Assembly: GCA_003136315.1 (NCBI GenBank)
Contig: PLDW01000409.1
Coordinates: 62,918 to 98,833, forward strand
Source of the DNA: Gemmataceae bacterium
Lineage (GTDB): Bacteria; Planctomycetota; Planctomycetia; Gemmatales; Gemmataceae
Length of the DNA: 35,916 nucleotides
Direction of reading: 5' to 3'
A model generated the notes under the pieces. It was given only the letters and a program-made list of their open reading frames with translations, was not told the DNA's origin and searched no databases. Shown here one piece after another: positions 3,839 to 32,250 of this stretch; positions within the stretch are counted from its first letter, which is position 1, and each line of letters begins with the position of its first letter. The position numbers and the translations under genes were made by a program.

Positions 3839-5308
3839 TCACCCCTTGGCGGCTGGTGGCATTACCCCGTGGAAGAACAGCCACGAGATTGCCAGACCAA
3901 CCCAGATCACAAACCCGAACAGGCTGACCACATACACCAGCGCCAGGCGGCCCAGCCCCTCGGCCCACAACCGCCGGAGGTTCGCTGCCAGCCCGATCGA
4001 AAAGAAGGTCAGAACGAAGAAGAGCTGACGGATCACGTCTCCTTGCCCCGTCCCTCGCTGGAGGGCTGGCACCAGTTTGGGATCCGATAAACCGATCGCC
4101 AGGAAGACTCCGAACGTGAGTGCATAGCCGAACACAAACTTGGGGAATCGCTGCCAAATCTCCTGAAGCGGGAGCCGGCGATCCGCCCTTGGCTCGATTT
4201 TCCACGACCAGATGGCGGCCAGGATCACCGCCCACACGCCGATAAACAGGTCGATGAAGACCTTCACGGTCGTGGTCGTCATCACCATCCAGCCAGGAGC
4301 GTAGTCGTGGCCGCTCTCGACGGAGCGGGTGTAGATCAGCGATTCGGTCACCGCCCCACTTGCCACTGCGGCTCCGTCGGTCTTTACGGCCAGCCCCATC
4401 CAGGCCGCCGCGACCATCGGCTCATCGGCGAGGAACGTGCTGGCCAGCGGCGGGAGAATCAGCATCTCCACCACGGAAAAGATAACCACCAGCGACGAGA
4501 CCATGATCGGAACGACCGGACGGGCGCGGACCGCAGCGCCAGTCGTGATCGCAGCCGAGACCCCACAGATCGAGATGCCCGAAGCGAGTGGTGCGGCCCA
4601 CTCGCGACTGAACCCGAAATACTTCCGGGCGATAAAATAGACCACCGCCCAGTAAATCAGATAGGCTTCGACGATCGCAGCGAGTCCCCGGAACAAAATG
4701 ACGGACGCCAGCCCCTGTGCTCCCGCAGCCTTGACCCCAAGCCCAGCGCCAAGCACGACGACCGCCGTCTTGATGTAGAGTTCGGAGCGAGCCGCCTCCT
4801 TGAGCCACGCAGCGACACCCGGCAGGAAGTTGCCGATGAACAACCCACCCAGGAGGGCCAACAGATAACCAGCCTCGCCCGTCAGACCGAGTGACCAGGG
4901 TATCCCAAATGCGCTGCGCTTATCCGGCGTCGCTGCGATGTAGGCGAAGTTCCCTGCCGCCCAGCAGCCAAAGGCGAGCGCGAACACGATGGTGAAACGA
5001 ACCGCGAACCTTGAAGGGGAGATACCGAGGAACTTCGCGCCTGCGGTCAGGACCAGCAACAGGAACACATACGTCAGGCCGAGGCTGCCAACACCGGTCA
5101 GCCAGGGGTAGCCCTTCGATGCGGGAGAGAGAATTTTCCCCGGGTCGAGCCAGACAGATGTCGACACGACCCACCCCAGCAGATCGCCACCAGCGAGCAC
5201 GCCGAGGCTCAGGCCGACCACAAGCAAACCCAGAAACACCGCGAGGGTATCTTCGGAACGGAGCCAGGATCGCGGTGGTGGGGTCTGTTCCAGTGGTGGG
5301 GTCAGCAT
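3839..5308 (-). CDS. YeiH (UPF0324) family membrane transporter
   Basis: A 489-residue polytopic inner-membrane protein of the YeiH / UPF0324 family, often labelled putative sulfate exporter; members are thought to move small anions, but the substrate is unproven. The N terminus is cytosolic (PLEQTPPPRSW), followed by about 11 hydrophobic helices. Family-typical stretches include KEAARSELYIKTAVVVLGAGLGV (about 170-190), ASGISICGVSAAITTGAAV in the middle, and AWMGLAVKTDGAAVASGAVTE further on, which match the conserved Gly-rich helices of the family. Usual members have about 330-350 residues; this one is longer, with extra helices at the N terminus (DLLGWVVSTSVWLDPGKIL) and an insertion near the end, as in other planctomycete and proteobacterial long forms. 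It is followed after six bases by a small membrane protein gene. The region upstream is a ~900-base gap, so it probably has its own promoter. Confidence 0.88.
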   Translation of the reverse strand: MLTPPLEQTPPPRSWLRSEDTLAVFLGLLVVGLSLGVLAGGDLLGWVVSTSVWLDPGKILSPASKGYPWLTGVGSLGLTYVFLLLVLTAGAKFLGISPSRFAVRFTIVFALAFGCWAAGNFAYIAATPDKRSAFGIPWSLGLTGEAGYLLALLGGLFIGNFLPGVAAWLKEAARSELYIKTAVVVLGAGLGVKAAGAQGLASVILFRGLAAIVEAYLIYWAVVYFIARKYFGFSREWAAPLASGISICGVSAAITTGAAVRARPVVPIMVSSLVVIFSVVEMLILPPLASTFLADEPMVAAAWMGLAVKTDGAAVASGAVTESLIYTRSVESGHDYAPGWMVMTTTTVKVFIDLFIGVWAVILAAIWSWKIEPRADRRLPLQEIWQRFPKFVFGYALTFGVFLAIGLSDPKLVPALQRGTGQGDVIRQLFFVLTFFSIGLAANLRRLWAEGLGRLALVYVVSLFGFVIWVGLAISWLFFHGVMPPAAKG

Positions 5309-6096: not shown

Positions 6097-6158
6097 GGGA
6101 GGGCGAGGCTCCTGCCGAGCGTGTGGGTGGTACGGCTCGGCAGGAGCCTCGCCCTCCC
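6097..6158. repeat. 60-bp palindromic repeat, copy 2
   Basis: Arms 6097-6120 and 6135-6158 are perfect reverse complements over 24 bases (arm start GGGAGGGCGAGGCTCCTGCC) with a 14-base loop. It begins about 65 bases after the stop of the halogenase-like flavoprotein gene (which ends at 6223 on the minus strand). It is the best-conserved of the three copies in the window. Confidence 0.9.
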
Positions 6159-6222: not shown

Positions 6223-7731
6223 TCAGCGACAAGAGGCCGGAAGGGTGCTGACGAACGGATACATGTTCCGTCGGTCAGGGTCGCACAAACCACAGAGGTT
6301 GTAGGGCTCAAACCCGTGTCGGGCGGCTGCCATGAATCGATCGGAATCCGAAGCGTCGACGGTCAGAGCCTGTCGGAAGAGCCGGTCCGCCATCTCACGA
6401 TAGCCAGGATGGTCTGCGAGCAGGAATGCCTCGTCAGGTCCGGCCTGGCCAGTTCGTTCCCGTTCCTCGCAGAACATCGCAGCTGCGAAGTACAACATGG
6501 TCACAGTAGCCATGACCGGGAAGCGGTCGAAGCAGGCGAAGCAGGTTCCGGTGATCTCGTCCACCCAGGCGAGTTCCCGCAACACAGCCCGGCCGTAGCC
6601 CGCCAGACGCTGCTCCCGTGTAGGGCTGCGCCAGTCCTCCGCCAGAAGTCGGCCGAGGCGGTTCACGGCGAAGAGAGTCTGCGCGATCCCCGGGCTTAAC
6701 CAGGCGTCGAGAAAACCGGCCGAGTGAGGGAGCAGAGCCCAGTTGGGGCCAGCCGCCTGGGTCAAACGGCGCTGGAGGCGGCCAGTTCGGACGAACGGCC
6801 GCACGGGTTCCGCCTCAGTGAACTGTCTTGCGAGGGAGGGGTAGGTGCGAAGCAACCGTTTCCACTCGGCTTCCGGTGTCTCGTCTGGCCGGATCGGGTG
6901 CGTCTCGGGGTCGAGCGAAAACCCGGCACTCGTCACCCCGTTCTCGAAGCGGAGCACCCACATCCACCCGCCATCAATAATCTGGTGCAAGGCTGCTGCA
7001 TCGCATGGGAACATGTGCTCCGCGGTGGCCGCCGGACCGGCCGTTTCTTGCAGCACGTCGTGCCACCGGGCCACACCGACGAAGTGCGAATACACAGCCC
7101 GAGAACGAGCACGCAAGCAGGAGGGATCCACCGATTCCAGGCCCAGCGGTTGGCTCAACGCCTGACCGTTCCCGGTCGCGTCCACAAGAAAGCCAGCGTG
7201 AATGCTTGCCGCACCGTCGGGCCTGATCCCTTCTAACTCCCAGCCTCGATCACTGTGCCGGATCGAGTGAATCTCCAGTCGGTCGAGATAAGGAACACCC
7301 TCTGCGATCGCACGGTTGACGAGGTGAGCATCGAATTCTGCCCGGAACCAGTGCGTATCCGCAATCGCATCGTCGGGGCTCGCAGCGACCAGGAGGGCGT
7401 TGGTATTGTGTGCCGTCGGGGTGAACGCCTTGCCCAGGTCGTGCCGGAAGAAGCTGAAGCCACGTTTCAGGCCGCAGGTGAGGTGGGGATAATTCGCCTT
7501 CCAGGTTCCGTACTTGGCGAACGGCCGGAGCCAGTCGAGGCCAAATCGGTCCGCGATGGCTGCAAGCTTGAAATCCGCCAGGGGGGTCGAGGATTCCCCG
7601 ATTGCAAACCGCGGGTGCGTACCTCGTTCGAGTAGCGCGACCGAGTAACCTAGTGTGCGTGCGATGATCGCGAGGAGGGTGCCGCCGAAGCCAGAGCCCA
7701 GAATGGCGAGGTCACAGTCGAGTCGGGTCAT
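6223..7731 (-). CDS. FAD-dependent oxidoreductase, tryptophan-halogenase-like
   Basis: A 502-residue cytoplasmic flavoprotein. Residues 7-17 form the FAD-binding strand and loop (DLAILGSGFGG, GxGxxG). GESSTPLADF at about 45-54 corresponds to the GES(T) flavin motif of flavin-dependent halogenases and related oxygenases. YGTWKANY at about 74-81 places a lysine near residue 78, close to the catalytic lysine of tryptophan halogenases. The motif GGWMWVL at about 254-260 resembles, but does not fully match, the halogenase signature GWxWxIP. FLVDATGNGQ at about 181-190 is the second FAD-binding motif. The protein could be a true halogenase or an oxygenase/reductase of the same superfamily. It is the last gene of the four-gene cluster; its ATG overlaps the radical SAM stop by four bases (translational coupling). 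A palindrome follows it. The substrate is unknown. Confidence 0.85.
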   Translation of the reverse strand: MTRLDCDLAILGSGFGGTLLAIIARTLGYSVALLERGTHPRFAIGESSTPLADFKLAAIADRFGLDWLRPFAKYGTWKANYPHLTCGLKRGFSFFRHDLGKAFTPTAHNTNALLVAASPDDAIADTHWFRAEFDAHLVNRAIAEGVPYLDRLEIHSIRHSDRGWELEGIRPDGAASIHAGFLVDATGNGQALSQPLGLESVDPSCLRARSRAVYSHFVGVARWHDVLQETAGPAATAEHMFPCDAAALHQIIDGGWMWVLRFENGVTSAGFSLDPETHPIRPDETPEAEWKRLLRTYPSLARQFTEAEPVRPFVRTGRLQRRLTQAAGPNWALLPHSAGFLDAWLSPGIAQTLFAVNRLGRLLAEDWRSPTREQRLAGYGRAVLRELAWVDEITGTCFACFDRFPVMATVTMLYFAAAMFCEERERTGQAGPDEAFLLADHPGYREMADRLFRQALTVDASDSDRFMAAARHGFEPYNLCGLCDPDRRNMYPFVSTLPASCR

Positions 7732-8657
7732 GGAGAGCCTCCCTGCTCGAACCTCTGGGTACGGTTTATCATTGCCAGCCGTGCAACCCGCTCAGCGCGG
7801 TTCGGGGCGTCGGGAGAGACGTTGTCGATGTCCCACATGTCGAGGAAGACCCGGCCGGTTCGGAGTGATAGGCCGTACTCCACCGCCTGCTCCAACGATT
7901 CGAGGGAGGGAGGGGCAAAGAGCCCCTGACGTGCGAGCTCTTCCATCGCACCATTGCCCTCCCGGGTTGGGATCAGGCTACAGCACTCGACTCCCACAGA
8001 GAATGCATAGTCGAGCGACCGACAGGCCCACTCCAAACCTTCCGCATCAGTCAGGTAAGGCGGGCGGACGAGGATGAATGCCCGCACGGCAACCGCTGCA
8101 TCGCGAAGCGAACGGACGGCACGGGCAAAGTCGTCCAGGGTCATCCCCTTATTCAACCTGGGAAGGATATCGGGGTGGACCGTCTCCAGCCCCATCGCCA
8201 CCTCGAAATCACCTGCGAGAAGGTTGCGAAATTCCCAGCACCGTCGGCCGACCAGTCTGGGGTGGCACTCGACGATGACCCGCTCGAACGGGGCCGCCAG
8301 TCTGGCGATCTCGATGTAGTCCTCGGGTGGAATGGCGCGAGCGTCGAAGAAACTTCCTGCGTTGTACAGTTTCAGGTGTTGAGCGGCCGGGAGTTGGTCG
8401 AGAGCCCAGCGGATCTGCTCCGGGACTTGCCCCGGAGCGACCGACTCGACAAGAGTGTTTTTCCACAGATCGCACATCAGGCAGCGGAAGGGGCATTCCC
8501 GGTTGGTCAGAAAGAGCGTGGCAACATCCAGCACCCGCCCATCGGCGGCGTATTCAGGTTCGACCAGCCAGGCGTACGGCCGATCAGCCGAGAGCCGGTT
8601 ACGGGGTGGCCGGTGGCTGAGGATCCAGTCATCCTGAAACTGCGGGAGCGGCTTCAT
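7728..8657 (-). CDS. Radical SAM protein of unknown substrate
   Basis: A 309-residue radical S-adenosylmethionine enzyme. The cluster motif CPFRCLMC (Cys55, Cys59, Cys62 from the chosen start; spacing CxxxCxxC) binds the [4Fe-4S] cluster that splits SAM. Downstream, LKLYNAGSFFDARAIP and VIVECHPRLV resemble the equivalent stretches of the Elp3/RaSEA (TIGR01210) group, and AMGLETVHPDILPRLNKG matches the conserved AxGLET segment of that group. There is no SPASM domain, since the C-terminal part lacks a Cys-rich region. I place the start at ATG 8657 because AGAGGG lies just upstream and the alternative at 8687 has no ribosome site; either way the gene overlaps the end of the asparagine-synthetase-like gene by about 30 bases or more. 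Its place in the cluster suggests it modifies the same unknown product. Confidence 0.88.
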   Translation of the reverse strand: MKPLPQFQDDWILSHRPPRNRLSADRPYAWLVEPEYAADGRVLDVATLFLTNRECPFRCLMCDLWKNTLVESVAPGQVPEQIRWALDQLPAAQHLKLYNAGSFFDARAIPPEDYIEIARLAAPFERVIVECHPRLVGRRCWEFRNLLAGDFEVAMGLETVHPDILPRLNKGMTLDDFARAVRSLRDAAVAVRAFILVRPPYLTDAEGLEWACRSLDYAFSVGVECCSLIPTREGNGAMEELARQGLFAPPSLESLEQAVEYGLSLRTGRVFLDMWDIDNVSPDAPNRAERVARLAMINRTQRFEQGGSP

Positions 8658-9972
8658 ACGCCCTCTGGAAGATCCGACGATATTCATCCGGGCCAGACGG
8701 AAAGAGCCCGTCCGCCTGACTTGCCGCCCCGTGTTGGAAACGACGTTTGGGGAAAATCGGCATGTCCAGCCCGGTCACCGCCTTGACTCCGGCGGCCACC
8801 ACCTGCCCTTTCAAGCCGTACAATCGCTCGTGATCCCAGGCGGTCAGCTCAATAAACGGGATGCCTTCGGCGACGGCGATCACTCCGGGGCAGACGAACG
8901 GGCTGAGTCCGATGAACCCGTTGACTGCAACCGGAGCGTATGTTCTGGCGTAACCGCGGCTTTGACCACCCGAGTAAGTGAGCGAATGCTTGATCGCCTG
9001 GACGCCCCACCCCTCCTGGTACAGCATGAGGTTATTGAGCACACTGCGGATGGTCAGTTCGGGATTTTCCTCGATCGGGTAGTCTTTCAGGTTCTCGTCC
9101 CCACCGTCGCCATCCAGTAGATACTTCCAGTCGGGGTAGCGAGTCCGGATGCCTCGGCAAAGGGCCACGGCCATCGCTGCGGACTGCACATCGAGTGGTT
9201 TGTAGTCCTCAATCACCCGAACGGCGTCCTCGATCCTCACCGCATCACGGGCAACCGGGATCGGTTCGAGGAACAGTTCGAGTCCAAGCCGACGGAGAAA
9301 CTCGCGCGCCTGTTCGAGGTCAGGGCCGTCACCACCCACCGCGAGCGTGAACGCTTTCAGGCGGCCTGGGCTCTCACCACGGCTGAGGAGAGCGTGATAC
9401 GTGAGCAAGAAGACTGCGCCACTATCGACACCGCCGGAGAAACACACACCGATCGGTTCCCGCGGTCCGACCCGATCAAGCCAGCGCGAGATTTCGTGGT
9501 AGGCAGCGCCGATGTACTGCTCCCCGATCATCGCCACATCCGCGGGCAAACTGTTCCGGGTCGGGGCAAAGAACCGGGTGTAGGTGGGGTTCGGGTCGGG
9601 GCAGCCGACCAGTTCGATCCGCACAACATGGTGGGCGGGGATCATCCGGGTGTAGGAGGGGTGGAACTGGCCGCCCAGACCGAGGGCCGCGAGTTGATTG
9701 CGGATGGCATCGATGCGATCGGCAACGATCAAGATCGGTCCGTCGTGCCATTTGGCGATAAAATACCGCATCAGGCGCCCGATCGTCCGGGCCAGGCTCA
9801 CGCTCTTCCCTTGTTGGCCCACAAGGGCGAATTCCCCGTCGATCCGCCGAACATCGTTGGTATCACCGCCGGCGACCAGGCCACGGGCCTCCTCGACCGT
9901 CATGTTATAGATGCGGTTGCCTGCGGGGTCGGTCAGATCGATGACCCGGGAGAGGGGAATCGGTTGGTGCAT
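8629..9972 (-). CDS. Asparagine-synthetase-like amidotransferase lacking the catalytic Cys
   Basis: A 447-residue protein with a C-terminal asparagine synthase domain: PP-loop SGGVDSG at residues 179-185, which adenylates a carboxylate with ATP, and a later LDGDGGDEN at about 287-294 that corresponds to the AsnB GxGGDE segment. True AsnB has Cys2 for glutamine hydrolysis; here the first residues are MHQPIPLS and the N-terminal domain, although showing a glutaminase-like IDGEFALV (about 44-51), lacks that Cys. This is the pattern of asparagine-synthetase relatives such as beta-lactam synthetases and some lasso-peptide cyclases, which form amide bonds without glutamine. The length is below AsnB (about 550-600). 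An internal ATG at 9903, four bases after the acyltransferase stop, is another possible start. It overlaps both neighbours, so it belongs to the four-gene operon. Its substrate is not known. Confidence 0.85.
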   Translation of the reverse strand: MHQPIPLSRVIDLTDPAGNRIYNMTVEEARGLVAGGDTNDVRRIDGEFALVGQQGKSVSLARTIGRLMRYFIAKWHDGPILIVADRIDAIRNQLAALGLGGQFHPSYTRMIPAHHVVRIELVGCPDPNPTYTRFFAPTRNSLPADVAMIGEQYIGAAYHEISRWLDRVGPREPIGVCFSGGVDSGAVFLLTYHALLSRGESPGRLKAFTLAVGGDGPDLEQAREFLRRLGLELFLEPIPVARDAVRIEDAVRVIEDYKPLDVQSAAMAVALCRGIRTRYPDWKYLLDGDGGDENLKDYPIEENPELTIRSVLNNLMLYQEGWGVQAIKHSLTYSGGQSRGYARTYAPVAVNGFIGLSPFVCPGVIAVAEGIPFIELTAWDHERLYGLKGQVVAAGVKAVTGLDMPIFPKRRFQHGAASQADGLFPSGPDEYRRIFQRAYEAAPAVSG

Positions 9973-11128
9973 GAGTCGGTTCTCGGAAGTGGCGGATGAC
10001 TCGGATGAGTGGGCCAGTGGAGAATGTTAGCAGGCCCCATCCAATCCGCCAAAGACCCCGCAGCAACGTCGGCCGGACGTGGATACGTGTGCGGATTCGC
10101 ACTAACCACTCCTTGAATTCCGCTGGCTTCACCTTTGCGAGCGGTCGCAGTCGAGAGTGGAGTGCGCTTTCCAACCGACCGAACAGCAACCCGCCACCAA
10201 TCGCTGCCACGACTGCGACCCACAGCACTTCGACCCGTCCGACCCATCCGAGTCGTGAAGCGGGATAGAGAACCGCTAACAGGATCGGACCGTGGAACAA
10301 GAAGAGTCCGTAGGTGCAGTCCCCGAGTCGAGCCAGGGGGTTCGACTCCTTCACCTGGGAGAACGTGACGGCCAGCCAAACGGCCCCGGCCGCCGCAAGC
10401 CCCATACAGCTCCAACCGAGTTCGGGTTGGATTGGCCGGGTCGAGATCACGTACAACAGGGCGACAACTGCCGACAGGACTGCCCACCGCCACTTCCTGC
10501 CACGATCCTTCAGTTGATACGTCAGCACCCCGAGTAAGAAGGGAACATTATAGACCGACAGCGCAATCGTGGGCCAGTTCGGGATCGGGTCGAAGTAGTA
10601 ACCGGGCCAGAAAACCATTTTGACGCTAATCGCAATCAGCCACACAGCCGACAGGATCGGCACGCCGCGACGGGCACCGAAGAGGCGCAGTCCTGCCAAA
10701 GCGACGGAGAGAAAGGCTTCGTACACCAACGACCACTCGACGCCGAGCAAGTAGGTGCATCCGGCCGGACCTGCTGGCCAGAGAGTCAACTCGGTCAAGT
10801 TGATAAAATAGATCAGCCACCGATGATACTCGGTGAAGACACGCAACCGCATCAGGACGACCACCCCAACCAGAGCCAGCCAGTACCCCGGGTATAATCG
10901 CAGGAACCGGGCGAGAAGGAACCGACCGGGCGAGGCAGTGCGGACGGCCTGCGCCAGCACAAATCCAGACACCGCGAAGAATAGCGGAACCGGGAAACCC
11001 CCGATGAGTCCATACCGGAGCCAGGAGAAGTCGATCCCAATGCGTTGAGGGGCATGGCACTCCAGGTGGTACAGAACCACCCCGATGGCCGCCGCGACAC
11101 GCAGGAGTTGAATGTTGTGGAACCGCAA
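9905..11128 (-). CDS. Acyltransferase 3 family membrane protein
   Basis: A 407-residue polytopic membrane protein of the acyltransferase-3 (OafA/NodX-like) family, which transfers acyl groups to sugars, peptidoglycan, lipids or small molecules. Key features are NIQLLRVAAAIGVVLYH near residue 20, with the catalytic His of the RxxA...H motif, GGFPVPLFFAVSGFVLA (about 43-60) and about ten hydrophobic helices, with a family-like FLFHGPILL segment near residue 270. The C-terminal ~80 residues are soluble and basic. It is the first gene of the cluster: its 3' end overlaps the asparagine-synthetase-like gene by about 68 bases. It probably adds an acyl group to the cluster product or an envelope component, but the donor and acceptor are unknown. 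The start at 11128 (MRFHNIQLL) places the first helix correctly. Confidence 0.9.
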   Translation of the reverse strand: MRFHNIQLLRVAAAIGVVLYHLECHAPQRIGIDFSWLRYGLIGGFPVPLFFAVSGFVLAQAVRTASPGRFLLARFLRLYPGYWLALVGVVVLMRLRVFTEYHRWLIYFINLTELTLWPAGPAGCTYLLGVEWSLVYEAFLSVALAGLRLFGARRGVPILSAVWLIAISVKMVFWPGYYFDPIPNWPTIALSVYNVPFLLGVLTYQLKDRGRKWRWAVLSAVVALLYVISTRPIQPELGWSCMGLAAAGAVWLAVTFSQVKESNPLARLGDCTYGLFLFHGPILLAVLYPASRLGWVGRVEVLWVAVVAAIGGGLLFGRLESALHSRLRPLAKVKPAEFKEWLVRIRTRIHVRPTLLRGLWRIGWGLLTFSTGPLIRVIRHFREPTHAPTDSPLPGHRSDRPRRQPHL

Positions 11129-15869: not shown

Positions 15870-15929
15870 GGGAGTACGAGGCTCCTGCCGAGCTACACCT
15901 TCACAGCTCGGCAGGAGCCTCGCACTCCC
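15870..15929. repeat. 60-bp palindromic repeat, copy 3
   Basis: Arms 15870-15894 and 15905-15929 pair over 25 bases with one mismatch (left starts GGGAGTACGAGGCTCC, right ends GGAGCCTCGCACTCCC) around a 10-base loop. It lies between the convergent stops of pgm (15782) and the DUF1501 gene (15965), where it could act as a two-way terminator. Confidence 0.88.
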
Positions 15930-23482: not shown

Positions 23483-24373
23483 TCACTTCTTTGGGGGTGG
23501 GGGCAAGTCGGAGTAATCGAGGGGGATCTTCTTCAACTCTGCCTCGACCATTGGCTCGCGTTTCCCAACTTTTTCGCGAGCCGACTTCACAACCGCGGTG
23601 CTCACCCCGGGGTTCGCATCGTCTGGATCGGCCTTGTTTCCCCAGGAGTTCCGGACATGGGTCAGCACCGCAGCGATCTCGTAATCCTTCATCGCTCCGC
23701 CCTGCGCTGGCATTGCCTCCCGGCCGTATACCCGCCCCCGGACCGTCACCGATTGGTGCAGGCCGTACAGCAGGATGCGGGCGAGCCGGGCGGGTGATGC
23801 CTCCGTGCCGGAAACCCATTCGGATCGATTCAGTGGGGGATAATCCTTGCTCGCGTCCCCCTCTCCGTCGGTCTTGTGGCAGGCGAGGCAGACGCGCTGG
23901 TAGCGGTCGGCCCCGATCACCATCAACTCGGCTACAGTCTTCGGCTCAGGGTCGGGGGCCGTGGCACCCGGATCGACCCGGAGTCCAGCGTAGCGGAACT
24001 CGCCAGTGTCGTAGACATCGCGGCGGAAGTCGGCCGAGTTCGCTCCGATGTAGTACCCGCCCCACATCAGGAGTCCACCGAATACGGCTATCACCCACAT
24101 CGGAACCGGCTCGAACCCGTCCCGGGGTTCGGCCTGTTCTCGCATGAAGATGTCGTGCATCGCCTGGACGGTGTCTTGGCCGCCAGATGTCGTATCCGGC
24201 TCATCCGCGTCCGGGGTGCCTGGCTCTCCGCGAGCCGAGAGCATGACCGGGTCGTTCATGACTTCCATGTGGGACCGGTGCAGCCCGAGCACGGAGTCTG
24301 ACCCGCCCGGCCCTGGGACATCGGAATCGGGGAGGTCCTTGGTTCGATGGGGTTCGGGGTTCGAGGTACTCAT
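23483..24373 (-). CDS. Single-haem CcoP-like cytochrome c subunit of the cbb3-type oxidase
   Basis: A 296-residue membrane-anchored cytochrome c, likely the CcoP-like electron-entry subunit. A Pro/Asp-rich cytosolic-side N terminus (residues 1-90) is followed by one membrane helix, PMWVIAVFGGLLMWGGYYIG (about 91-110), then a soluble domain with one haem c site, CLACH (Cys162-His166), and MPAQGG with Met221 as the probable distal ligand. Usual CcoP has two haem sites; here only one CxxCH is seen, and the N-terminal soluble part is longer than normal. It overlaps the ccoO gene by four bases (ATGA), so it is translationally coupled as the last subunit gene of the oxidase. It may take electrons from ActE or a soluble cytochrome. 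Confidence 0.88.
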   Translation of the reverse strand: MSTSNPEPHRTKDLPDSDVPGPGGSDSVLGLHRSHMEVMNDPVMLSARGEPGTPDADEPDTTSGGQDTVQAMHDIFMREQAEPRDGFEPVPMWVIAVFGGLLMWGGYYIGANSADFRRDVYDTGEFRYAGLRVDPGATAPDPEPKTVAELMVIGADRYQRVCLACHKTDGEGDASKDYPPLNRSEWVSGTEASPARLARILLYGLHQSVTVRGRVYGREAMPAQGGAMKDYEIAAVLTHVRNSWGNKADPDDANPGVSTAVVKSAREKVGKREPMVEAELKKIPLDYSDLPPPPKK

Positions 24374-25185
24374 TCCTTGACCTCCGGCAGTGGGGTCTCG
24401 GCTTTACGCAGTTCCAGGAGATACGCGACCAGAGATTCGGCTTCCGGGGTCGGGATGACCTGGTAGTCCTCCTCGTCGGTCGTGAGCCAGAACGCGAGCA
24501 ATTCGGCCTTCCCCGCAGCCGTGGTCAGGTTAAACGGGTTGGGAGTCGCAGCCTGGGATACGTCTGGGAGTGTGGACACCCGTCGGGCAAGAATGGCTGC
24601 CCATTCGGCGTCGGTCGGTCGCCACCGGTAGCCGGGATTGACGGTCCACTCGCGGCCGAGCTTCAGGGCCTTATCCGACTTTTGTCCCCCAACCACCTTC
24701 TCCCGAGTGTAGAGGAATGCGAACGACGGCATGGTACTCCAGCCATTGATCGCCCGGGGGTTGAGAAGGTGCGGGTGGTGCCACGCCTCGGCATAGCGGG
24801 TGCCGACGTTGGCCAGGTCCGGCCCGGTCCGCATTGTCCCGAGCATGGTCGGGCGATCATAAATGTAGTCACGGGACACGGTCCGGCGAGTGCCCCACCC
24901 GCGGCGAATGTCGGCCCCGGTCTTCATCTGCCCGTCTTCCCACCAGTTCCCGAACTTGGCGCTGCGAACCTGTTGCGTGTGGCAATAGAGGCAGCCGTTC
25001 GCCTGGTACACCTTCACCCCGGCGAGGGCCGCTCCACCCAGCGGACGGGGATAGAGGTCGTCGCCGGGGGTCTTGGCGTAGGGCTGCTCGTTCTGCATCT
25101 GCCAGTACGGGTACAGGATCAGCCCGAGCCAGCTTGACGAGAAGGTCAGCAAAGCGCCAACAAAGATCACCATTCCGCGGTCCAT
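24370..25185 (-). CDS. ccoO: cbb3-type cytochrome c oxidase subunit II (CcoO)
   Basis: A 271-residue membrane-anchored monohaem cytochrome c. It has one N-terminal helix (MVIFVGALLTFSSSWLGLILYPY, residues 5-27), then the family-defining CLYCHTQQVRS with haem site Cys65-His69. Further on are DIRRGWGTRRTVSRDYIYDRPTMLGTMRTGPDL (about 92-124), and HPHLLNPRAINGWSTMPSF with the probable distal Met near residue 148; these are the typical CcoO stretches. The length is close to the family (about 200-240), with a longer middle. ATG 25185 has GGGGGAG a few bases upstream; a GTG at 25221 would extend it by 12 residues but lacks a ribosome site. It transfers electrons from the CcoP-like subunit to CcoN. 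It lies 19 bases behind ccoN. Confidence 0.93.
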   Translation of the reverse strand: MDRGMVIFVGALLTFSSSWLGLILYPYWQMQNEQPYAKTPGDDLYPRPLGGAALAGVKVYQANGCLYCHTQQVRSAKFGNWWEDGQMKTGADIRRGWGTRRTVSRDYIYDRPTMLGTMRTGPDLANVGTRYAEAWHHPHLLNPRAINGWSTMPSFAFLYTREKVVGGQKSDKALKLGREWTVNPGYRWRPTDAEWAAILARRVSTLPDVSQAATPNPFNLTTAAGKAELLAFWLTTDEEDYQVIPTPEAESLVAYLLELRKAETPLPEVKE

Positions 25186-25204
25186 GTCCGCTCCCCCCAG
25201 AGCG

Positions 25205-26671
25205 TCAGCCCTGGACATCACCCGCGTTCGGGGCTGGTTCGACGAAATAGGTCGGACCGCCGGATCGCTGCCGGCCCCACCCCATTAGATTCGCCACCAG
25301 TAGGAGTGCAAACGCCAGATGCCCAAGGCCGATCAGGCCCCCGGCAAGCGACCGGGCGAACAGGAAACGGAGGAGATACTCGATGATATTCGGCATCGGG
25401 ATATTGGGGTTGTTCAGCATCCGCCCCTGCCACCATCCGCCGATCGACAGGCTGACGAAATAGATCGTGATGCCGATCGCGTCGCACCAGAAGTGGACGC
25501 GGATCAGGGTTGGGCTGGCCCACTCTCGACCCGTTAATCGGGGGACCATGTAATAGAAGAGCCCGAACATGGTCATGGTGAAGAACCCATACATTCCGAG
25601 GTGCGCGTGGGCGACCGTGTAGTGGGTGAAGTGGGCGACCTCGCTGAAGTCTTTCAGGGCCTCGATCGACCCCTGAAAGCTGACTGCTGTGTAGGAGATT
25701 GCCCCGAACACCGTGAACCGCAGCGCGGGACTGTACTTCAACCGCTGGAAACTCCCGAGCATGGTCATGTGATGGTTGATAGCAACCGCGATCACCGGTA
25801 TGAACATCATCATGCTCCCGACCGTGCTGGCCGTGGCTAACCACGCAGGGATCGGCCCACCGATCAGGTGGTGCATCCCGGCCCACGAGTAGAACAGTGC
25901 CAGGGACCAGAACCCGATAATACTCAGGTAATAACTGTGGACTGGGCGACCGATGACCTTTGGGATAATATAGTACGTCGTCCCGACTGCGATGGGGGTC
26001 AGCCACAGGCCGAGGTAGTTGTGTCCGAACCACCAGTTCACGACCGGCTGGATCACTCCGGTTGCGGGCATCCAGAAGATCATCAGCACCGCGACCGTGT
26101 ATAGCCACGGGAACCAGAACACCGCGGCCAAGATATACCACTGGGTAACGTAGACATGCAACTCGCGGCGGCGGCGGAAGGTAGCGACCGTCCACGCCGA
26201 GACGATCCCGACTCCCGTGATAAAGAAAGGCGGGACGTAGGAGGGAGCATCAAGCCACTCGACCGACTGAGCATCCCCGCTCAAGATCCCGACCACATCC
26301 GCAATCATCCCAATGTTCCACATCGTGCCGGCGAACACGAGCAGAGTCGGGTAGATCAGGGCGACTCGTGAGAGGCGGCACATCAGCCAAATCGCGGCAG
26401 CCATCACCATCATCGCCGACCAACCGACCCCGACGGCCTGGAGGTGGGCCATCCGCACCCGCCCGAAGGTGAGTTCCGGACTGCCTGTCAGAAAGTACGG
26501 GCTGTGCAACTTGATCGAGGCGATGATCCCCAGGACCGTCCCGACCAAAAGCCAGAAGGCGGCACTCGTGGCGAAATAGAGCACCGGAACCCGGCAGGAG
26601 GCGTCGATCTCTCGTCGCTCAAGAGCGGACCGTTCCCGGTCGGTCTGCGTCAACGGGGTGGTGGTGGCCAT
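25205..26671 (-). CDS. ccoN: cbb3-type cytochrome c oxidase subunit I (CcoN)
   Basis: A 488-residue haem-copper oxidase catalytic subunit with about 12 membrane helices. Conserved residues visible: RMAHLQAVGVGWSAMMVMA (low-spin haem His near 75), WWFGHNYLGLWLTP (CuB His), ALFYSWAGMHHLIGGP (Tyr that in cbb3 oxidases is cross-linked to the CuB His, and the paired CuB His-His), and HFTHYTVAHAHLGMYGFF (haem ligands). These are the C-family (cbb3) patterns. It reduces oxygen to water and pumps protons across the cytoplasmic membrane. It is preceded by a CcoS-like gene (27 bases) and followed by ccoO. cbb3 oxidases usually have high oxygen affinity; whether this one serves low oxygen is not shown. 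Confidence 0.96.
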   Translation of the reverse strand: MATTTPLTQTDRERSALERREIDASCRVPVLYFATSAAFWLLVGTVLGIIASIKLHSPYFLTGSPELTFGRVRMAHLQAVGVGWSAMMVMAAAIWLMCRLSRVALIYPTLLVFAGTMWNIGMIADVVGILSGDAQSVEWLDAPSYVPPFFITGVGIVSAWTVATFRRRRELHVYVTQWYILAAVFWFPWLYTVAVLMIFWMPATGVIQPVVNWWFGHNYLGLWLTPIAVGTTYYIIPKVIGRPVHSYYLSIIGFWSLALFYSWAGMHHLIGGPIPAWLATASTVGSMMMFIPVIAVAINHHMTMLGSFQRLKYSPALRFTVFGAISYTAVSFQGSIEALKDFSEVAHFTHYTVAHAHLGMYGFFTMTMFGLFYYMVPRLTGREWASPTLIRVHFWCDAIGITIYFVSLSIGGWWQGRMLNNPNIPMPNIIEYLLRFLFARSLAGGLIGLGHLAFALLLVANLMGWGRQRSGGPTYFVEPAPNAGDVQG

Positions 26672-26698
26672 TTCAGATCGGTCTCCGGCCAGTACGGA

Positions 26699-26935
26699 TC
26701 ACGGATCACAGGAGTCGCTTACGACCCTCGGGAATTCATCGGTCGTCTCGCCGATGGGCTCGTCCGGACCAAAGATCGACTGCGCTCCCTGCTGGAAGTT
26801 TTCGAACTGACGGTGGCGGAATGCCCACCCCATCGCCAGAACAGCGGCACCACCGAACATCACGACCGAGCCAATGATTGTGGCCAGGATCATGAAATCA
26901 GCGGAGTTACGATTGATAAACTCAGTCGTGTTCAC
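26699..26935 (-). CDS. CcoS/FixS-like small membrane protein
   Basis: A 78-residue protein with one membrane helix (ILATIIGSVVMFGGAAVLAMGWAF, about 16-39) followed by RHRQFENFQQGAQSIFGPDEP. The latter matches the WAxxxxQFxDLxxPAxxIL stretch after the helix in CcoS/FixS, a factor for maturation of cbb3 oxidases. Its position directly before ccoN fits. The match is partial and CcoQ-like subunits are also short and helical, so I do not give a symbol. The start is GTG, with the strong site AAGGAG a few bases upstream, one of the better ribosome sites in the operon. The stop is 27 bases before ccoN. Confidence 0.7.
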   Translation of the reverse strand: MNTTEFINRNSADFMILATIIGSVVMFGGAAVLAMGWAFRHRQFENFQQGAQSIFGPDEPIGETTDEFPRVVSDSCDP

Positions 26936-26974
26936 GCTCGCTCCTTCAGGTCTGTGGCCGCGTAACAGACGCTC

Positions 26975-27325
26975 TCACTTTTTTTCCGGTGCCGTTGGTG
27001 CTGCAATCGGTTCAATGGGGAACGGCAGCCGGCCGTAGCGATTTTTGTCGTCCTTTGACTTCTCGGTGTGAGCCAACACCTCGGCAGTCGCCTTGCCGAC
27101 GGATAATTTCACCGTCGAGTCAGTCCCGTCGAGGACAGCTTGGTTCCGGGCCTGGACTTCCTTCAGTTTGGCACCTGGATCGGCCTTCGTCTCGATTCGC
27201 GCATCGCCGAGGTAATTTGGCGAGTAATACGCGACCAGCACAAGACCGACAAACAGGAAAAGCCCCAGAAGCGTGGCCACTGCGGTGGCGTAGGGAAAAC
27301 CTTTTGGTGAGTCGGTGTCTGACAT
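26975..27325 (-). CDS. Small single-span membrane protein of the respiratory operon
   Basis: A 116-residue protein of unknown family. It has a short cytosolic start (MSDTDSPKGFPY), one membrane helix (ATAVATLLGLFLFVGLVLVAYY, about 13-34), then a charged, Lys/Glu-rich outer domain (EVQARNQAVLDGTDSTVKLSVGKATAEVLAHTE) and a C-terminal Pro/Ala tail. It has no haem or metal site. Placed between actF and the CcoS-like gene, it may be an accessory subunit or an assembly factor that links the two complexes; that is inference. The ATG has no ribosome site; a GTGTTTC heptad array is directly upstream, and 27326-27431 separates it from actF. Confidence 0.7.
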   Translation of the reverse strand: MSDTDSPKGFPYATAVATLLGLFLFVGLVLVAYYSPNYLGDARIETKADPGAKLKEVQARNQAVLDGTDSTVKLSVGKATAEVLAHTEKSKDDKNRYGRLPFPIEPIAAPTAPEKK

Positions 27326-27326
27326 G

Positions 27327-27356
27327 GTGTTTTAGTGTTTCGTGTTTCGTGTTTCG
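27327..27356 (-). repeat. Heptad tandem array GTGTTTC (x3 plus partial)
   Basis: Three exact GTGTTTC units (27335-27355) follow an imperfect one (GTGTTTT, 27327-27333, plus A). They sit within about five bases of the ATG complement (27323-27325) of the 116-residue membrane protein gene, so the coding-strand leader reads CGAAACACGAAACACG..ACACC before ATG, with no Shine-Dalgarno. The same ACACCATG junction is seen at the prenyltransferase-repeat gene. Confidence 0.8.
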
Positions 27357-27431
27357 TAGATAGCACTCCACCTGCCGTCTGTGACTATTCGGCCCTCTTG
27401 AACTCCAAACGGGTGGCCGAAGCTCAACGAG

Positions 27432-28715
27432 CTATGGTGTTTCATTCTCATATCCAATCGTTTCGTTGAGCCGGGCGTCCCGAATCGGGATCAGGGGAGA
27501 CCGCTGGAACCCGCGGAGAGCCGACAGAAGAACCATCGTGGACATGAACACTGGAGCGGCCACATCGAGCAGGCGGAGGTGGATCGTACCCTGATGCAAG
27601 ACGGGCAGGATCTGCCAGTACAAATCAAACGCATGGGTCAGGAGGATCCACCCGGCCGCCACGGCCAGCATTACCGGGTTCCGCTTGTTTGCGCGGGGGA
27701 GAAGCAAGAAAAACGGGACGACAAAGTACAGAATCGGGAGGAGGATTGAAGCGTTATACCAGCCCCCGTTCCTTCGCAGAAGGTAGAACTGCGTCTCCTC
27801 CGGCATGTTCCCGTACCAGATCAAGAAGTACTGGCTAAAGGCGATATACGCCCAGAACACCGTGAATCCAAACATCAGTTTGGCCACGTCGTGGAGGTGC
27901 TCGATCGTGATCGTGTTTCGCAAGTAACCAGCGTACCGAAGGATCAGCACAAGAAGAACGCCTGTCGAGAGCGACCCGCGCAACGCACCCGCCCAGAAGT
28001 ACACCCCGTAAATCGTGCTAAACCACGAATACTGGAGGCTCATCAACACATCAAAGCTGAAGAACGTGGCTGTCAGCCCGAGCAGGAGGACTCCGGATGG
28101 TGCCCACTGCTGCATCTTTCGCGTCAATGCGGCTCCACCGACGGCATCTTGCTGAAGCGACCACCGCCGCATTGCAGTGGCGTAGCCGACCCAGACACCA
28201 AAGTAGATCCCCAGGCGGAAGAGGAAGAATGGAATGCTGAAATACAAATGCTTGACCTGCCACTGATGATGTTCGTGGCTACCAAACGCTGGCTCGGGTT
28301 GGGAGATGAGATCATACCATTGATGCAGATTCCCGGAGTAGATCCCAAGCACCAGCGGCAGGAACAGCAGAGCCAGTGGGCCGATCGCCCGCGTGACGTT
28401 TTCGTACACTCGCCGCAGTCCGACCGACCAGCCCGCGTCGGCGACATGGTGGATCAGAATCCAGAACAGGGAACCGAGGCAGATGTCGAGGGCGAACACG
28501 TATCCGAAGAGATACGAATGGAAGAACTGCCGACGGGTAGTCTCCCCAACGGCCCCAACGAGGAGGATGACACCTGTTACTCCCAGGATCAGCAAAAGTG
28601 TACGGAATGCCCCGGCCGTACGGTCGCCAAGGGGCGCGACATCGTCCGGGAGCCCCGGCGGCAGGGTGAAGGCCTGGTCGGTGTCGATCCCGTTGGTGAT
28701 GGTTGCGGTGCTCAT
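27432..28715 (-). CDS. actF: Alternative complex III subunit ActF
   Basis: A 427-residue polytopic membrane protein of the ActF group (NrfD/PsrC-related), a quinol-oxidising or structural subunit of alternative complex III. About ten helices are visible: TLLILGVTGVILLVGAVGE, FHSYLFGYVFALDICLGSLFWIL, IGPLALLFLPLVLGIYSG, FLFRLGIYFGVWVGYAT, GVLLLGLTATFFSFDVLMSL and others. The conserved GYVFALDICLGSLFWILIHHVADAGWS and WYGNMPEETQFY are typical of ActF proteins. The ATG at 28715 (MSTATITNG) is chosen because the upstream in-frame start at 28772 adds a polar, unconserved stretch and lies right against the actE stop. The gap to actE is 58 bases. It works with ActC to take electrons from menaquinol or ubiquinol. 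Confidence 0.92.
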   Translation of the reverse strand: MSTATITNGIDTDQAFTLPPGLPDDVAPLGDRTAGAFRTLLLILGVTGVILLVGAVGETTRRQFFHSYLFGYVFALDICLGSLFWILIHHVADAGWSVGLRRVYENVTRAIGPLALLFLPLVLGIYSGNLHQWYDLISQPEPAFGSHEHHQWQVKHLYFSIPFFLFRLGIYFGVWVGYATAMRRWSLQQDAVGGAALTRKMQQWAPSGVLLLGLTATFFSFDVLMSLQYSWFSTIYGVYFWAGALRGSLSTGVLLVLILRYAGYLRNTITIEHLHDVAKLMFGFTVFWAYIAFSQYFLIWYGNMPEETQFYLLRRNGGWYNASILLPILYFVVPFFLLLPRANKRNPVMLAVAAGWILLTHAFDLYWQILPVLHQGTIHLRLLDVAAPVFMSTMVLLSALRGFQRSPLIPIRDARLNETIGYENETP

Positions 28716-28773
28716 CAAATCGCCGTTGGCCTTGTCTTCGGTATGTCGTCCGCTCGCTGGACGCGAGACCACA

Positions 28774-29652
28774 CTACTTTTTGTCCACCATGCCCACCGG
28801 AGCGCGGGCGTACTGTAAGACCCGGAGGTAGGCGACGATGGCCCACCGGTCCTGCACTTTTACCTGATGCCCGTACCCTGGCATCGACCCCTTCCCATTT
28901 GTGATCGTGTGGAACAACTGCCCGTCCGGCAGGGACTGGTAGGTGGCCCCGGTCACATCCGCCGGGGCGACTGAAAGCCCATACGCGCCGACAATCCCGT
29001 AGGCATCAGTCCCCGCACCGCCCTTCCCACTCGTGCCGTGACAGGCTGCGCAGTGGACGTTGAACTGCTGCCGGCCATGTTGGAGCATCGGTCCCCACCC
29101 GCCAGCCGTGGAGACCGCCGCGTCTGGCACCCGTGCGACAAAATACCCCTCGGTGATTTGCCCCGCCTTCCACTCCGGGGGCTTGGGGACCGACACCCCG
29201 TCCTTCGTCTCTTTGGCGGTCGGGTTGGCGATCCCCAGATAATATCGCTGGTCAGCCTTCAGGAAATCGGCTGTCGGGCCAGGATGGTATCCGGCATCGG
29301 CGAAGTAATCGGTCCCATCGAACGGGATGGTGTTCTCGACCGGTAGCCGCATCGCCCGACCATCGGCGAACAACTTGCTCTCACCCTGAGCGGAATACCT
29401 CGGCTGATATTTCATGTCGAGGAAGAAGTGCCACGGCCGGGAACCGCTCGCCTGGCCGCGGAACCCGAGTGCGGCCACGACCAGTCCGAAACAGACGAAC
29501 AGGGCGGTGAGCATGGACAGGTACGAGAAGCCCCGGCCCCTCTTTCCGCGGACGCTGGAGAGGAACAGGGTGGCAACGACGAGCAACACCCCTGTGCCGA
29601 GGATGAGCCCGATCACCCAGTTCATGAAGACGTTCGTGTCGACGGAATACAT
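28774..29652 (-). CDS. actE: Alternative complex III subunit ActE (monohaem cytochrome c)
   Basis: A 292-residue membrane-anchored cytochrome c. It has two N-terminal helices, WVIGLILGTGVLLVVATLFL (about 12-31) and YLSMLTALFVCFGLVVAALGF (about 44-64), then the ActE-specific stretch FFLDMKYQPRYSAQGESKLFADGRAMRLPVENT (about 76-108). The haem site is CAACH (Cys201-His205) and GSMPGYGH supplies the distal Met257. It carries electrons from the ActB iron-sulfur/haem subunits to the terminal oxidase. The ATG has AGGTGA upstream. The 275-base gap above it, between actCD and actE, is filled with hairpin repeats. The length agrees with ACIII ActE proteins (usually about 200-300). Confidence 0.93.
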   Translation of the reverse strand: MYSVDTNVFMNWVIGLILGTGVLLVVATLFLSSVRGKRGRGFSYLSMLTALFVCFGLVVAALGFRGQASGSRPWHFFLDMKYQPRYSAQGESKLFADGRAMRLPVENTIPFDGTDYFADAGYHPGPTADFLKADQRYYLGIANPTAKETKDGVSVPKPPEWKAGQITEGYFVARVPDAAVSTAGGWGPMLQHGRQQFNVHCAACHGTSGKGGAGTDAYGIVGAYGLSVAPADVTGATYQSLPDGQLFHTITNGKGSMPGYGHQVKVQDRWAIVAYLRVLQYARAPVGMVDKK

Positions 29653-29728
29653 GGATCACCTGATCGCAGTTGTCACTTTATCATGCGGATGGTATCGAAC
29701 CCTCCAACCCGCTGGGAAGAAACCTATC

Positions 29729-29826: not shown

Positions 29827-29927
29827 GACAACCAACGGATTCACCTTCACTCGGGTCTCACAGGTTTTTTCTCGCGATTTGGGCGCACTGGGTAGATCGC
29901 GCCCTTCCAACTGGCTACTCCCAATCA

Positions 29928-32024: not shown

Positions 32025-32052
32025 TGAGCTTTCGCTTTCGCAAAACCAAACC

Positions 32053-32206: not shown

Positions 32207-32213
32207 TTCTTCC

Positions 32214-32248: not shown

Positions 32249-32250
32249 GC

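Follow-up and report, generated by a model that had tools for sequence, protein, structure and literature searches.

The window analyzed here is a 35,916-nucleotide stretch of a Gemmataceae bacterium contig. Its minus strand carries four long open reading frames (ORFs), encoding a membrane acyltransferase (ACT), an enzyme of the asparagine-synthetase/beta-lactam-synthetase fold (ASN), a radical SAM enzyme (RSAM), and a halogenase-fold flavoprotein (HAL) (Table 1). A sequence-only reading of this DNA had described four packed, overlapping genes on one strand, and both that arrangement and the enzyme types it named hold: successive genes overlap by 68 (ACT/ASN), 29 (ASN/RSAM, counted from the ATG at 8657), and 4 bases (RSAM/HAL), as read from the sequence, and all four enzyme types exceed the curated Pfam cut-offs. 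For RSAM, an alignment of homologues favors the internal ATG at 8657 over 8687 as the start. ASN, RSAM, and HAL are real genes, because relatives with 69–83% identity are found in Gemmataceae-type loci (L023–L027 and L029). The earlier statements that the window holds no NRPS or PKS and that the four-gene set cannot be assigned to a known pathway were also confirmed; neither of these systems, nor a carrier protein, turned up in the Pfam scan of 21 window ORFs, and no known pathway matched. The inverted repeat beyond HAL suggests a terminator or a REP-like palindrome; related copies lie at 1277 and 15879–15920 of the window.

Table 1. Features of the gene cluster and its 3′ flank, in window coordinates.
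Feature	Position	Strand	Details
ACT, membrane acyltransferase (Acyl_transf_3)	9905–11128	−	TTG start, 407 aa; PF01757, E = 3.4e-25
ASN, asparagine-synthetase/beta-lactam-synthetase-fold enzyme	8629–9972	−	447 aa; PF00733, E = 6.7e-14
RSAM, radical SAM enzyme, archaeosine-RaSEA-like	7728–8657	−	ORF open to 8687 (319 aa); PF04055, E = 1.5e-7
HAL, halogenase-fold flavoprotein, CtcP/PltM-like	6223–7731	−	502 aa; PF04820, E = 9.8e-8
24-base perfect inverted repeat just 3′ of HAL	6097–6158		arms 6097–6120 and 6135–6158; found by script

ASN has a degenerate N-terminal Ntn domain and retains the PP-loop SGGVDS. Cys2 is absent from the window protein and from the start-reaching rows of a 12-row alignment, in agreement with the earlier description of an amide-forming enzyme without the glutaminase Cys. 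Within the PP-loop (FSGGVDSG), S178, G180, D182, and S183, numbered without the first Met, are invariant in 33 rows. The AF2 model of ASN (pLDDT 82) has the Asn synthetase fold, with human Asn synthetase 9b6c as its best Foldseek match (TM 0.64/0.56, E = 1.9e-12), and aligns with beta-lactam synthetase 1mc1 at TM 0.62/0.57. Its score against TIGR01536, the NCBIfam model of glutamine-dependent asparagine synthetase, is 38.2 bits, below the cut-off of 267. The lasso-peptide macrolactam cyclase model was absent from the NCBIfam matches of 33 ASN members, and no lasso precursor or protease neighbor was recognized in the Pfam-scanned ORFs and neighbor clusters, small precursors excepted. The protein is ∼60% identical across phyla, and 150 of its 447 positions are at least 95% conserved among 66 members. 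Searches for solved-structure relatives of ASN and RSAM, by single sequence or by profile, returned at their thresholds nothing beyond one chance-level match (E = 0.71).

RSAM carries the radical SAM motif CxxxCxxC (CPFRCLMC), whose three Cys are invariant in a 12-row alignment, with conservation of 95% or more across 71 members. All 12 family members scanned match TIGR01210, the RaSEA equivalog model, against which RSAM scores 94.3 bits (cut-off 212); the QhpD model was not matched in NCBIfam scans of the window protein and 12 members.

HAL is most similar in phmmer searches to tetracycline 7-halogenase (7xgb, E = 1.6e-54) and PltM (6bzt, E = 5.3e-45). The GxGxxG motif that binds FAD is intact (G12, G14, and G17 in 25 of 25 members), and 24 of 25 members retain Lys89, which, from the alignment to CtcP, we take to be the catalytic Lys of flavin halogenases. 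The halogenase motif WxWxIP is altered to WxWxLR: the two Trp are kept in 25 and 24 of 25 members, whereas Ile is replaced by Leu in 23 and Pro by Arg in 21. The best NCBIfam match is QhpG (NF049967; 60.4 bits, cut-off 240), followed by CmlS, with GoxB and LodB lower.

ACT adjoins the other three genes solely in the window, among 102 loci compared. A tblastn search of these loci (E ≤ 10) returned nothing credible outside the window genome's own locus; the hits elsewhere were just three scraps with E values of 0.17 to 7.1, the best of which comprises 37 residues in L023 and runs across the start of ASN. Absence could be assessed directly in five loci where ASN is 79–83% identical and the upstream DNA is included. 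We therefore rejected ACT as a member of the set, and this comparison of loci indicates that it is probably a local chance neighbor, outside the conserved module.

The remaining three genes (hereafter the trio) are distributed together. ASN and RSAM occur in the identical 22 of 392 Planctomycetota genomes and the identical 15 of 188 Bacteroidota genomes. HAL accompanies them in 35 of these 37 genomes: it is present in 21 of the 22 planctomycetes versus 2 of 18 genomes of the same class that lack ASN/RSAM, and in 14 of the 15 Bacteroidota versus none of 12 tested, out of 173, that lack ASN (2 with and 10 without CRT1, the exported protein described below). ASN and RSAM lie no more than 3.5 kb apart in 19 of 22 Planctomycetota and 15 of 15 Bacteroidota, and RSAM and HAL in 9 of 21 and 13 of 14, respectively. 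Three of the 22 planctomycetes (G087, G216, and G365) have ASN and RSAM on separate contigs, and in seven single-contig genomes HAL is at least 236 kb away yet present. HAL is not universal, because it is missing in G365, the sole ASN-positive planctomycete sampled without it, and in all 11 genomes picked, non-randomly, from Bacteroidota-type linked loci (9 Bacteroidota including G394, 1 Marinimicrobia, and 1 Deferribacteres). The whole trio also occurs in Acidobacteriota, and the ASN-RSAM pair in further phyla; given its presence in Bacteroidota and Acidobacteriota, the trio is no planctomycete speciality, and the sequence-only reading has to be revised on this point. Its proposal of one pathway for all four genes, to be judged by co-conservation, stands for ASN, RSAM, and HAL, which share genomes and a conserved order, and falls for the acyltransferase. 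A shared function of these three proteins is almost certain.

To place the trio in context, we clustered the neighbors in 76 of the 102 loci, leaving out loci shorter than 4.5 kb. The most widely shared clusters are an FG-GAP/UnbV (CRTAC1-like) family (51 of 76 loci), HAL, and a binding protein. The FG-GAP/UnbV partner, CRT1, is a large exported protein composed of TPR and FG-GAP repeats, an UnbV/ASPIC domain, and an unannotated C-terminal domain (CTD) of ∼440 residues; PF13517 and PF07593 exceed the Pfam cut-offs in the L023 and L046 proteins, which identifies them as CRTAC1/UnbV-ASPIC proteins. As read from the sequences, CRT1 N-termini are lipoprotein-like or membrane-anchor-like. The gene adjoins the trio in Gemmataceae-type loci and ASN-RSAM in Bacteroidota loci, and is often distant from the trio; in the window genome it is on another contig. 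A LIV-like periplasmic binding protein lies next to CRT1 in many Bacteroidota clusters (cluster 4, 21 of 76 loci); the cluster 4 member was typed from L046. An AF2 model of this C-terminal domain reaches only moderate confidence (pLDDT 68.6). Its Foldseek matches to jelly rolls of the APC10/discoidin type are weak and cover parts of the fold (for APC10, target-based TM ∼0.4 across ∼133 columns), those to virus capsids look like chance, and we assign no fold from them. We found no bacterial function for FG-GAP/UnbV proteins in the literature consulted. These neighbors bear on whether the trio might modify tRNA or a nucleobase in a manner akin to archaeosine synthesis, unrelated to CRT1. The RaSEA matches of the RSAM family, with ASN potentially filling the role of ArcS, fit such a function; RSAM nevertheless scores far below the RaSEA cut-off, the commonest neighbor clusters are those named above, a halogenase-fold partner would be unexpected, and the distribution is patchy, all of which makes this explanation very improbable.

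The CTD of CRT1 is present in every ASN-positive genome (22 of 22 Planctomycetota and 15 of 15 Bacteroidota). The superfamily as a whole is not strictly trio-dependent, a notion we rejected since some CTD is encoded in 135 of 392 Planctomycetota genomes, 113 of which lack ASN/RSAM. The association resides in particular residues: Trp28 occurs in all 37 ASN/RSAM genomes, and 36 of them have a CRT1 that also contains Trp74, Gln151, and Pro183. Where Planctomycetota lack ASN/RSAM, their CRT1-like CTDs seldom have these residues. In a comparison of 62 CTDs with ASN/RSAM and 106 lacking them (L103, L104, L115, and L116, duplicates of the L118 and L220 copies, are left out), the three columns that separate the two groups best are Pro183, Trp28, and Trp74. 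Loci were obtained for 80 of 296 listed RSAM relatives, and CTDs were found in 38 of the 80, all with Trp28. Conversely, a Trp28-type CRT1 without ASN/RSAM occurs in at least 4 of 370 Planctomycetota, a lower bound because column 28 was left unread in 17 CTD-positive genomes (of 135), none of which has ASN/RSAM, and in 2 of 173 Bacteroidota. Such a CRT1 can thus exist without the pair, as in G266, G024, G361, G245, G574, and G578, where the absence of RSAM was rechecked by profile. Fisher tests of the Trp28–ASN/RSAM association gave 2.7e-32 and 2.4e-20, values that ignore shared ancestry. The trio is, very likely, coupled to the Trp28-type CRT1.

One form this coupling could take is the maturation of a quinone from Trp in CRT1, resembling the QhpD/QhpG case or the CTQ of LodB/GoxB; HAL would hydroxylate Trp28 or Trp74, and RSAM would make cross-links. 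QhpG is the top NCBIfam match of HAL, the CTD offers two module-specific Trp and the invariant Cys9, and G365, which lacks HAL, is also the sole ASN-positive planctomycete with Tyr at column 74. Moreover, the motif altered in HAL, WxWxIP, is proposed to prevent hydroxylation (PMC10696468). These points are offset by the QhpG score, which is far below the cut-off, by the closer relation of HAL to CtcP/PltM in the PDB search, and by an RSAM that is RaSEA-like and unmatched by the QhpD model. Furthermore, HAL-less genomes such as G394 retain both Trp, and Cys9 is equally invariant without the trio. We regard a quinone of this kind as improbable.

We favor a more general scheme, to which we give about an even chance, in which the trio is dedicated to making or installing a chemical group that the exported CRT1 needs. 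The chemistry we propose is drawn by analogy with ArcS-RaSEA. ASN would activate a carboxylate with ATP and join it to an amine donor, which might be an amino acid; ASN would be unable to use glutamine because the N-terminal Cys is gone. RSAM, probably in a complex with ASN because their genes overlap, would cleave the C-N bond of the donor while the nitrogen stays in place, in the manner of ArcS and RaSEA on tRNA. HAL would then oxygenate or halogenate an aromatic ring. The product may be a CRT1 residue modified in the vicinity of Trp28/Trp74, or else a small ligand or cofactor that binds at this site. Direct modification of CRT1 falls somewhat short of an even chance, and would have to precede export since the enzymes are apparently cytoplasmic; a small ligand or cofactor is an equally plausible product. 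CRT1 would work extracytoplasmically and may take part in redox chemistry, as cytochrome, RnfD-like, or hydrazine-synthase-like genes adjoin it in some lineages. In its most specific and tentative form, the scheme has the trio building a nitrogen-bearing, oxidized or halogenated aromatic group on or at Trp28/Trp74, which would represent a widespread, previously unknown cofactor and define a new extracytoplasmic class of redox enzyme, working in some bacteria with cytochromes or hydrazine-synthase-like complexes.

The product could instead be a free small molecule, a metabolite or signal, with CRT1 sharing the lifestyle of the trio or binding or sensing the product extracellularly. Among solved structures, HAL is nearest to CtcP and PltM, halogenases whose substrates are small aromatics; the ASN fold resembles that of beta-lactam and carbapenam synthetases, and the LIV-like binding protein beside CRT1 would suit such a role. 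However, the conservation of ASN is unlike that expected of fast-changing natural product genes, the window ORFs lack carrier proteins, NRPS, and PKS, and the CRT1 residues track the trio. We consider a free product rather unlikely, and the secondary metabolite suggested earlier, such as an acylated amide, finds no support in the cross-phylum identity of ASN or in the leading further partner of the trio, which is an exported TPR/FG-GAP/UnbV protein and not a set of biosynthetic genes.

The link between the trio and Trp28, Trp74, Gln151, and Pro183 provides a concrete, testable site in an FG-GAP/UnbV protein. A group on CRT1 would mean that a protein-derived or bound cofactor can be made by a new route; a small-molecule product would be a metabolite conserved across phyla. 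No description of the trio or of its link to CRT1 was found in the open-licence PMC literature. A related published context is that of hydrazine-synthase-like clusters outside anammox bacteria (PMC12758564), in which an FG-GAP/CRTAC1 gene is next to genes resembling HZS-alpha and HZS-beta-gamma, and one clade also has binding-protein genes; a text search of the paper's main text found no mention of radical SAM. The same gene combination adjoins ASN-RSAM in L069, L089, and L096, and in L098 (with RSAM; ASN not found) it is cut by the locus end. HZS-alpha-like genes are nonetheless optional, because they occur in 2 of 15 ASN-positive Bacteroidota (∼9 kb from the CRT1 domain in G394 and ∼5 kb in G526) and none of 22 ASN-positive planctomycetes, the 4 of 76 genomes that have them including two without ASN (G167 and G357). 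A hydrazine-synthase link as a general feature was rejected on these counts, although the occasional neighbors could bear on the workings of hydrazine synthase relatives.

Beta-lactam and carbapenam synthetases, like ASN, combine the Asn synthetase fold with loss of the glutaminase Cys. They differ from it in having other partners and just 11–18% identity in structural alignments, the beta-lactam synthetase comparison being one of overall fold alone. The maturation of quinohemoprotein amine dehydrogenase likewise pairs a radical SAM enzyme (QhpD) with a halogenase-fold flavoprotein; there, a peptidyl Trp is the residue modified by QhpG together with the radical SAM enzyme (PMC7876137). Trp is implicated in both systems, and the probable beneficiary is an exported protein. 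In the trio, by contrast, HAL is nearer to CtcP/PltM, RSAM belongs to another family, ASN is added, and the candidate substrate CRT1 is not an amine dehydrogenase subunit. The precedent for the ASN-RSAM chemistry is ArcS-RaSEA in archaeosine synthesis (PMC11298593); the trio likewise pairs a radical SAM enzyme of the TIGR01210 neighborhood with an enzyme that may attach an amine donor. Here, however, the latter enzyme has the Asn synthetase fold instead of being a TGT paralogue, the RSAM score falls far short of the RaSEA cut-off, and the system is bacterial and includes an extra flavoprotein.

ORF boundaries, Pfam matches and overlaps of 68, 29 and 4 bases in the window sequence bear out the sequence-only reading of four overlapping minus-strand genes, encoding in turn an acyltransferase (ACT), an asparagine-synthetase-like protein (ASN), a radical SAM protein (RSAM) and a halogenase-like flavoprotein (HAL). 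The closest named relatives of the window, among the matches listed, are Gemmataceae MAGs and isolates. A REP-like palindrome with the core AGGCTCCTGCCGAGC occurs at three places in the window. HAL is followed downstream by another minus-strand gene, for a membrane protein that matches Cons_hypoth698 (PF03601) and weakly resembles the YeiH family model, and the minus-strand region 23483-35787 carries an alternative complex III-like cluster, then COX1, FixO-like and CBB3-type cytochrome genes.

Positions of features in the window and in compared loci (L numbers, compared loci; G000, the window's genome)
Feature	Position	Strand	Remark
ACT	9905-11128	minus	class confirmed by Pfam
ASN	8629-9972	minus	class confirmed by Pfam
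RSAM	7728-8657, open to 8687	minus	class confirmed by Pfam
HAL	6223-7731	minus	class confirmed by Pfam
24-base perfect inverted repeat	6097-6158		after HAL; REP-like palindrome
REP-like palindrome, further places	1277; 15879-15920
Membrane protein	3839-5308	minus	PF03601
Iron-sulfur protein	32251-35787	minus	alternative complex III-like cluster
NrfD+ActD protein	29928-32072	minus	alternative complex III-like cluster
Cytochrome	28774-29652	minus	alternative complex III-like cluster
COX1	25205-26671	minus
FixO-like gene	24370-25221	minus
CBB3-type cytochrome gene	23483-24373	minus
RnfD/NqrB-like protein	L023:15841-16941		PF03116
FG-GAP/UnbV-type, HZS-alpha-like and fused HZS-beta-gamma-like genes	L069:4979-10156; L089:8928-14094; L096:9036-14137		beside ASN-RSAM; Bacteroidota
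RSAM, FG-GAP gene, HZS-alpha-like gene	L098:9117-13077		partial; locus ends soon after
LIV/ANF-receptor-type binding protein	L046:246-1325		upstream of CRT1
Second CRT1-like protein	G000:C487, ~4.0-7.6 kb		L116, L220

Among 102 loci collected by RSAM similarity (80, of 296 relatives, came from named genome records; the window's genome and the Planctomycetota sample supplied the other 22), some of them too short to reveal every neighbor, ASN shares the locus with RSAM in 91 and HAL in 35; the only case of ACT near RSAM is the locus of the window's own genome. We also sampled 392 evenly drawn Planctomycetota genomes and 188 genomes of Bacteroidota, the phylum to which the L046 genome belongs. 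RSAM occurs in 22 of the former and ASN in the identical 22, while ASN occurs in 15 of the latter and RSAM in the identical 15. HAL is found in 21/22 ASN-positive Planctomycetota and 14/15 ASN-positive Bacteroidota, and in genomes without ASN it is found in 2/18 same-class planctomycetes and 0/12 Bacteroidota tested. At most 3.5 kb separates ASN from RSAM in 19/22 Planctomycetota and 15/15 Bacteroidota; in genomes G087, G216 and G365 the two are on separate contigs. RSAM and HAL are no farther apart than 3.5 kb in 9/21 and 13/14 genomes, respectively, and in seven single-contig genomes (G048, G069, G181, G238, G299, G385 and G389) HAL is present 236 kb to 2.1 Mb away from RSAM. Because the genome sets are identical and HAL is kept even at a distance, ASN, RSAM and HAL constitute a functional unit rather than a mere frozen operon. 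HAL is not a universal companion of the ASN-RSAM pair: it was not found in G365, an ASN-positive planctomycete, or in any of 11 genomes picked from linked loci (nine Bacteroidota, including G394, one Marinimicrobia and one Deferribacteres), and was found in all five planctomycete and acidobacterial genomes picked likewise. ACT is probably incidental to the module. The shared pathway earlier proposed for all four genes is therefore supported for ASN, RSAM and HAL, which co-occur, and not for ACT; gene order is likewise conserved elsewhere as ASN-RSAM(-HAL), linked across phyla, with ACT unlinked.

The most widespread neighbor family besides ASN and RSAM consists of FG-GAP/UnbV proteins, present in 51 of the 76 loci used for neighbor clustering. 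Domains were typed in four proteins, from L023 and L046. The family comes in two recurrent kinds: CRT1, of ~1180 residues, in which TPR, FG-GAP and UnbV_ASPIC domains precede ~440 residues without a Pfam match (the CTD), and a shorter protein of ~550-700 residues. Gemmataceae-type loci (L023, L024, L026, L029) display the order ASN-RSAM-HAL-CRT1, followed by the short FG-GAP/UnbV protein and/or an RnfD-like gene, and many Bacteroidota loci the order binding protein-CRT1-short FG-GAP/UnbV protein-ASN-RSAM. This periplasmic binding protein is of the LIV/ANF-receptor type (cluster 4, 21/76 loci), and no permease was recognized beside it in those loci. CRT1 of the window's genome, 70% identical to that of L023, lies on a separate contig from the three enzyme genes. 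As read from sequence, CRT1 N-termini appear lipoprotein-like in Bacteroidota and membrane-anchor-like in Gemmataceae-type proteins.

A CTD profile (A1, E ≤ 1e-20) matched 135/392 Planctomycetota genomes, including 22/22 with ASN/RSAM, and 17/188 Bacteroidota genomes, including 15/15 with ASN/RSAM; the CTD is missing in 13/18 same-class genomes without ASN/RSAM. CRT1-like domains are more widespread than the three enzymes, and no ASN-RSAM pair without such a domain was found in the 392 Planctomycetota and 188 Bacteroidota genomes. The three-enzyme module is real, extends across phyla and is tied to CRT1. The planctomycete product once envisaged gives way to a module that Bacteroidota and acidobacterial genomes also carry, and a secondary-metabolite-type product is disfavored by the tie to a specific exported protein and by the lack of an obvious secondary metabolite cluster. 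The literature searched yielded no description of the module, which, as far as that literature shows, is apparently undescribed.

Two sets of CTDs were compared: 62 from genomes with ASN/RSAM or from linked loci, and 106 from Planctomycetota without these genes. Four columns separate the sets best: Pro183 is present in 61/61 versus 5%, Trp28 in 61/62 versus 4/106, Trp74 in 60/62 versus 4% and Gln151 in 60/61 versus 13%. Ser8, Cys9 and Asp25 show no variation in either set. All 18 Bacteroidota CTDs (17 genomes) have Trp28, Trp74, Gln151 and Pro183. Column 28 was read in 118 of the 135 CTD-positive Planctomycetota genomes. Trp28 occurs without ASN/RSAM in Planctomycetota G266, G024, G361 and G245 and in Bacteroidota G574 and G578, where a radical SAM profile search did not find RSAM; G266 and G361 retain HAL. 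Among ASN-positive planctomycetes G365 alone has no HAL, and it alone has a CRT1 with Tyr at column 74, a single case. Fisher values for the association between Trp28 and ASN/RSAM take no account of shared ancestry; the pattern recurs in two phyla with differing gene orders. The sole Trp28 exception in the ASN/RSAM-positive set is a divergent second copy in the window's genome (L220). This second CRT1-like protein is ~30% identical to the linked ones, and Gly replaces its Trp28.

A multiheme cytochrome (cluster 7, typed in L066) adjoins in seven loci, and an RnfD/NqrB-like membrane protein (cluster 6, typed in L023) lies near the FG-GAP/UnbV genes in seven Gemmataceae-type/Acidobacteriota loci (also L024, L025, L026, L029, L081 and L082), with no other Rnf genes recognized around it. 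Proteins resembling hydrazine synthase (HZS) alpha are encoded in L069, L089, L096 and L098, and HZS-beta-gamma-like proteins in the first three; against the PDB, the L069 alpha-like protein matched 5c2v_A (phmmer, E = 4.5e-16) and the fused protein 5c2v_B (E = 2.1e-47) and 5c2v_C (E = 8.1e-18). HZS-like clusters containing a CRTAC1 gene have been described in a paper whose main text makes no mention of radical SAM (PMC12758564). The cytochrome, RnfD-like and HZS-like neighbors are optional, yet their presence in some loci suggests extracytoplasmic redox work by CRT1.

An AF2 model of ASN (mean pLDDT 82) most resembles asparagine synthetase and beta-lactam synthetase in Foldseek (TM ~0.6, 15-18% identity). 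Compared to asparagine synthetase, ASN retains the PP-loop but has lost the glutaminase Cys; it scores far under the NCBIfam asparagine synthase cut-off, and about one third of its positions are ≥95% conserved (66 members). The nearest curated model to RSAM is RaSEA (94 bits versus a cut-off of 212), which all 12 members scanned matched. The nearest solved structures to HAL are the halogenases CtcP and PltM; the FAD motif and the Lys aligned with that of CtcP are retained, and WxWxIP is replaced by WxWxLR in most of the 25 members compared. Since WxWxIP has been proposed to prevent hydroxylation (PMC10696468), HAL may be an oxygenase instead of a halogenase.

We propose that ASN, unable to use glutamine, would join a carboxylate and an amine donor in an ATP-dependent reaction, that RSAM would then cut the donor's C-N bond, and that HAL would act last, on an aromatic ring. 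The substrate could be CRT1 itself, modified in the manner of QhpD/QhpG in quinohemoprotein amine dehydrogenase maturation (PMC7876137), or instead a small ligand or cofactor that docks at Trp28/Trp74. Direct cytoplasmic modification of CRT1 is somewhat less likely, because CRT1 is predicted to be exported as a lipoprotein or anchored protein. The RaSEA step of archaeosine synthesis is a C-N cleavage that leaves the nitrogen behind. Euryarchaeal ArcS attaches lysine, and RaSEA, complexed with ArcS, turns the adduct into archaeosine (PMC11298593); a glutamine-incapable ASN, always paired in the samples here with a RaSEA-like RSAM, would fit the same logic.
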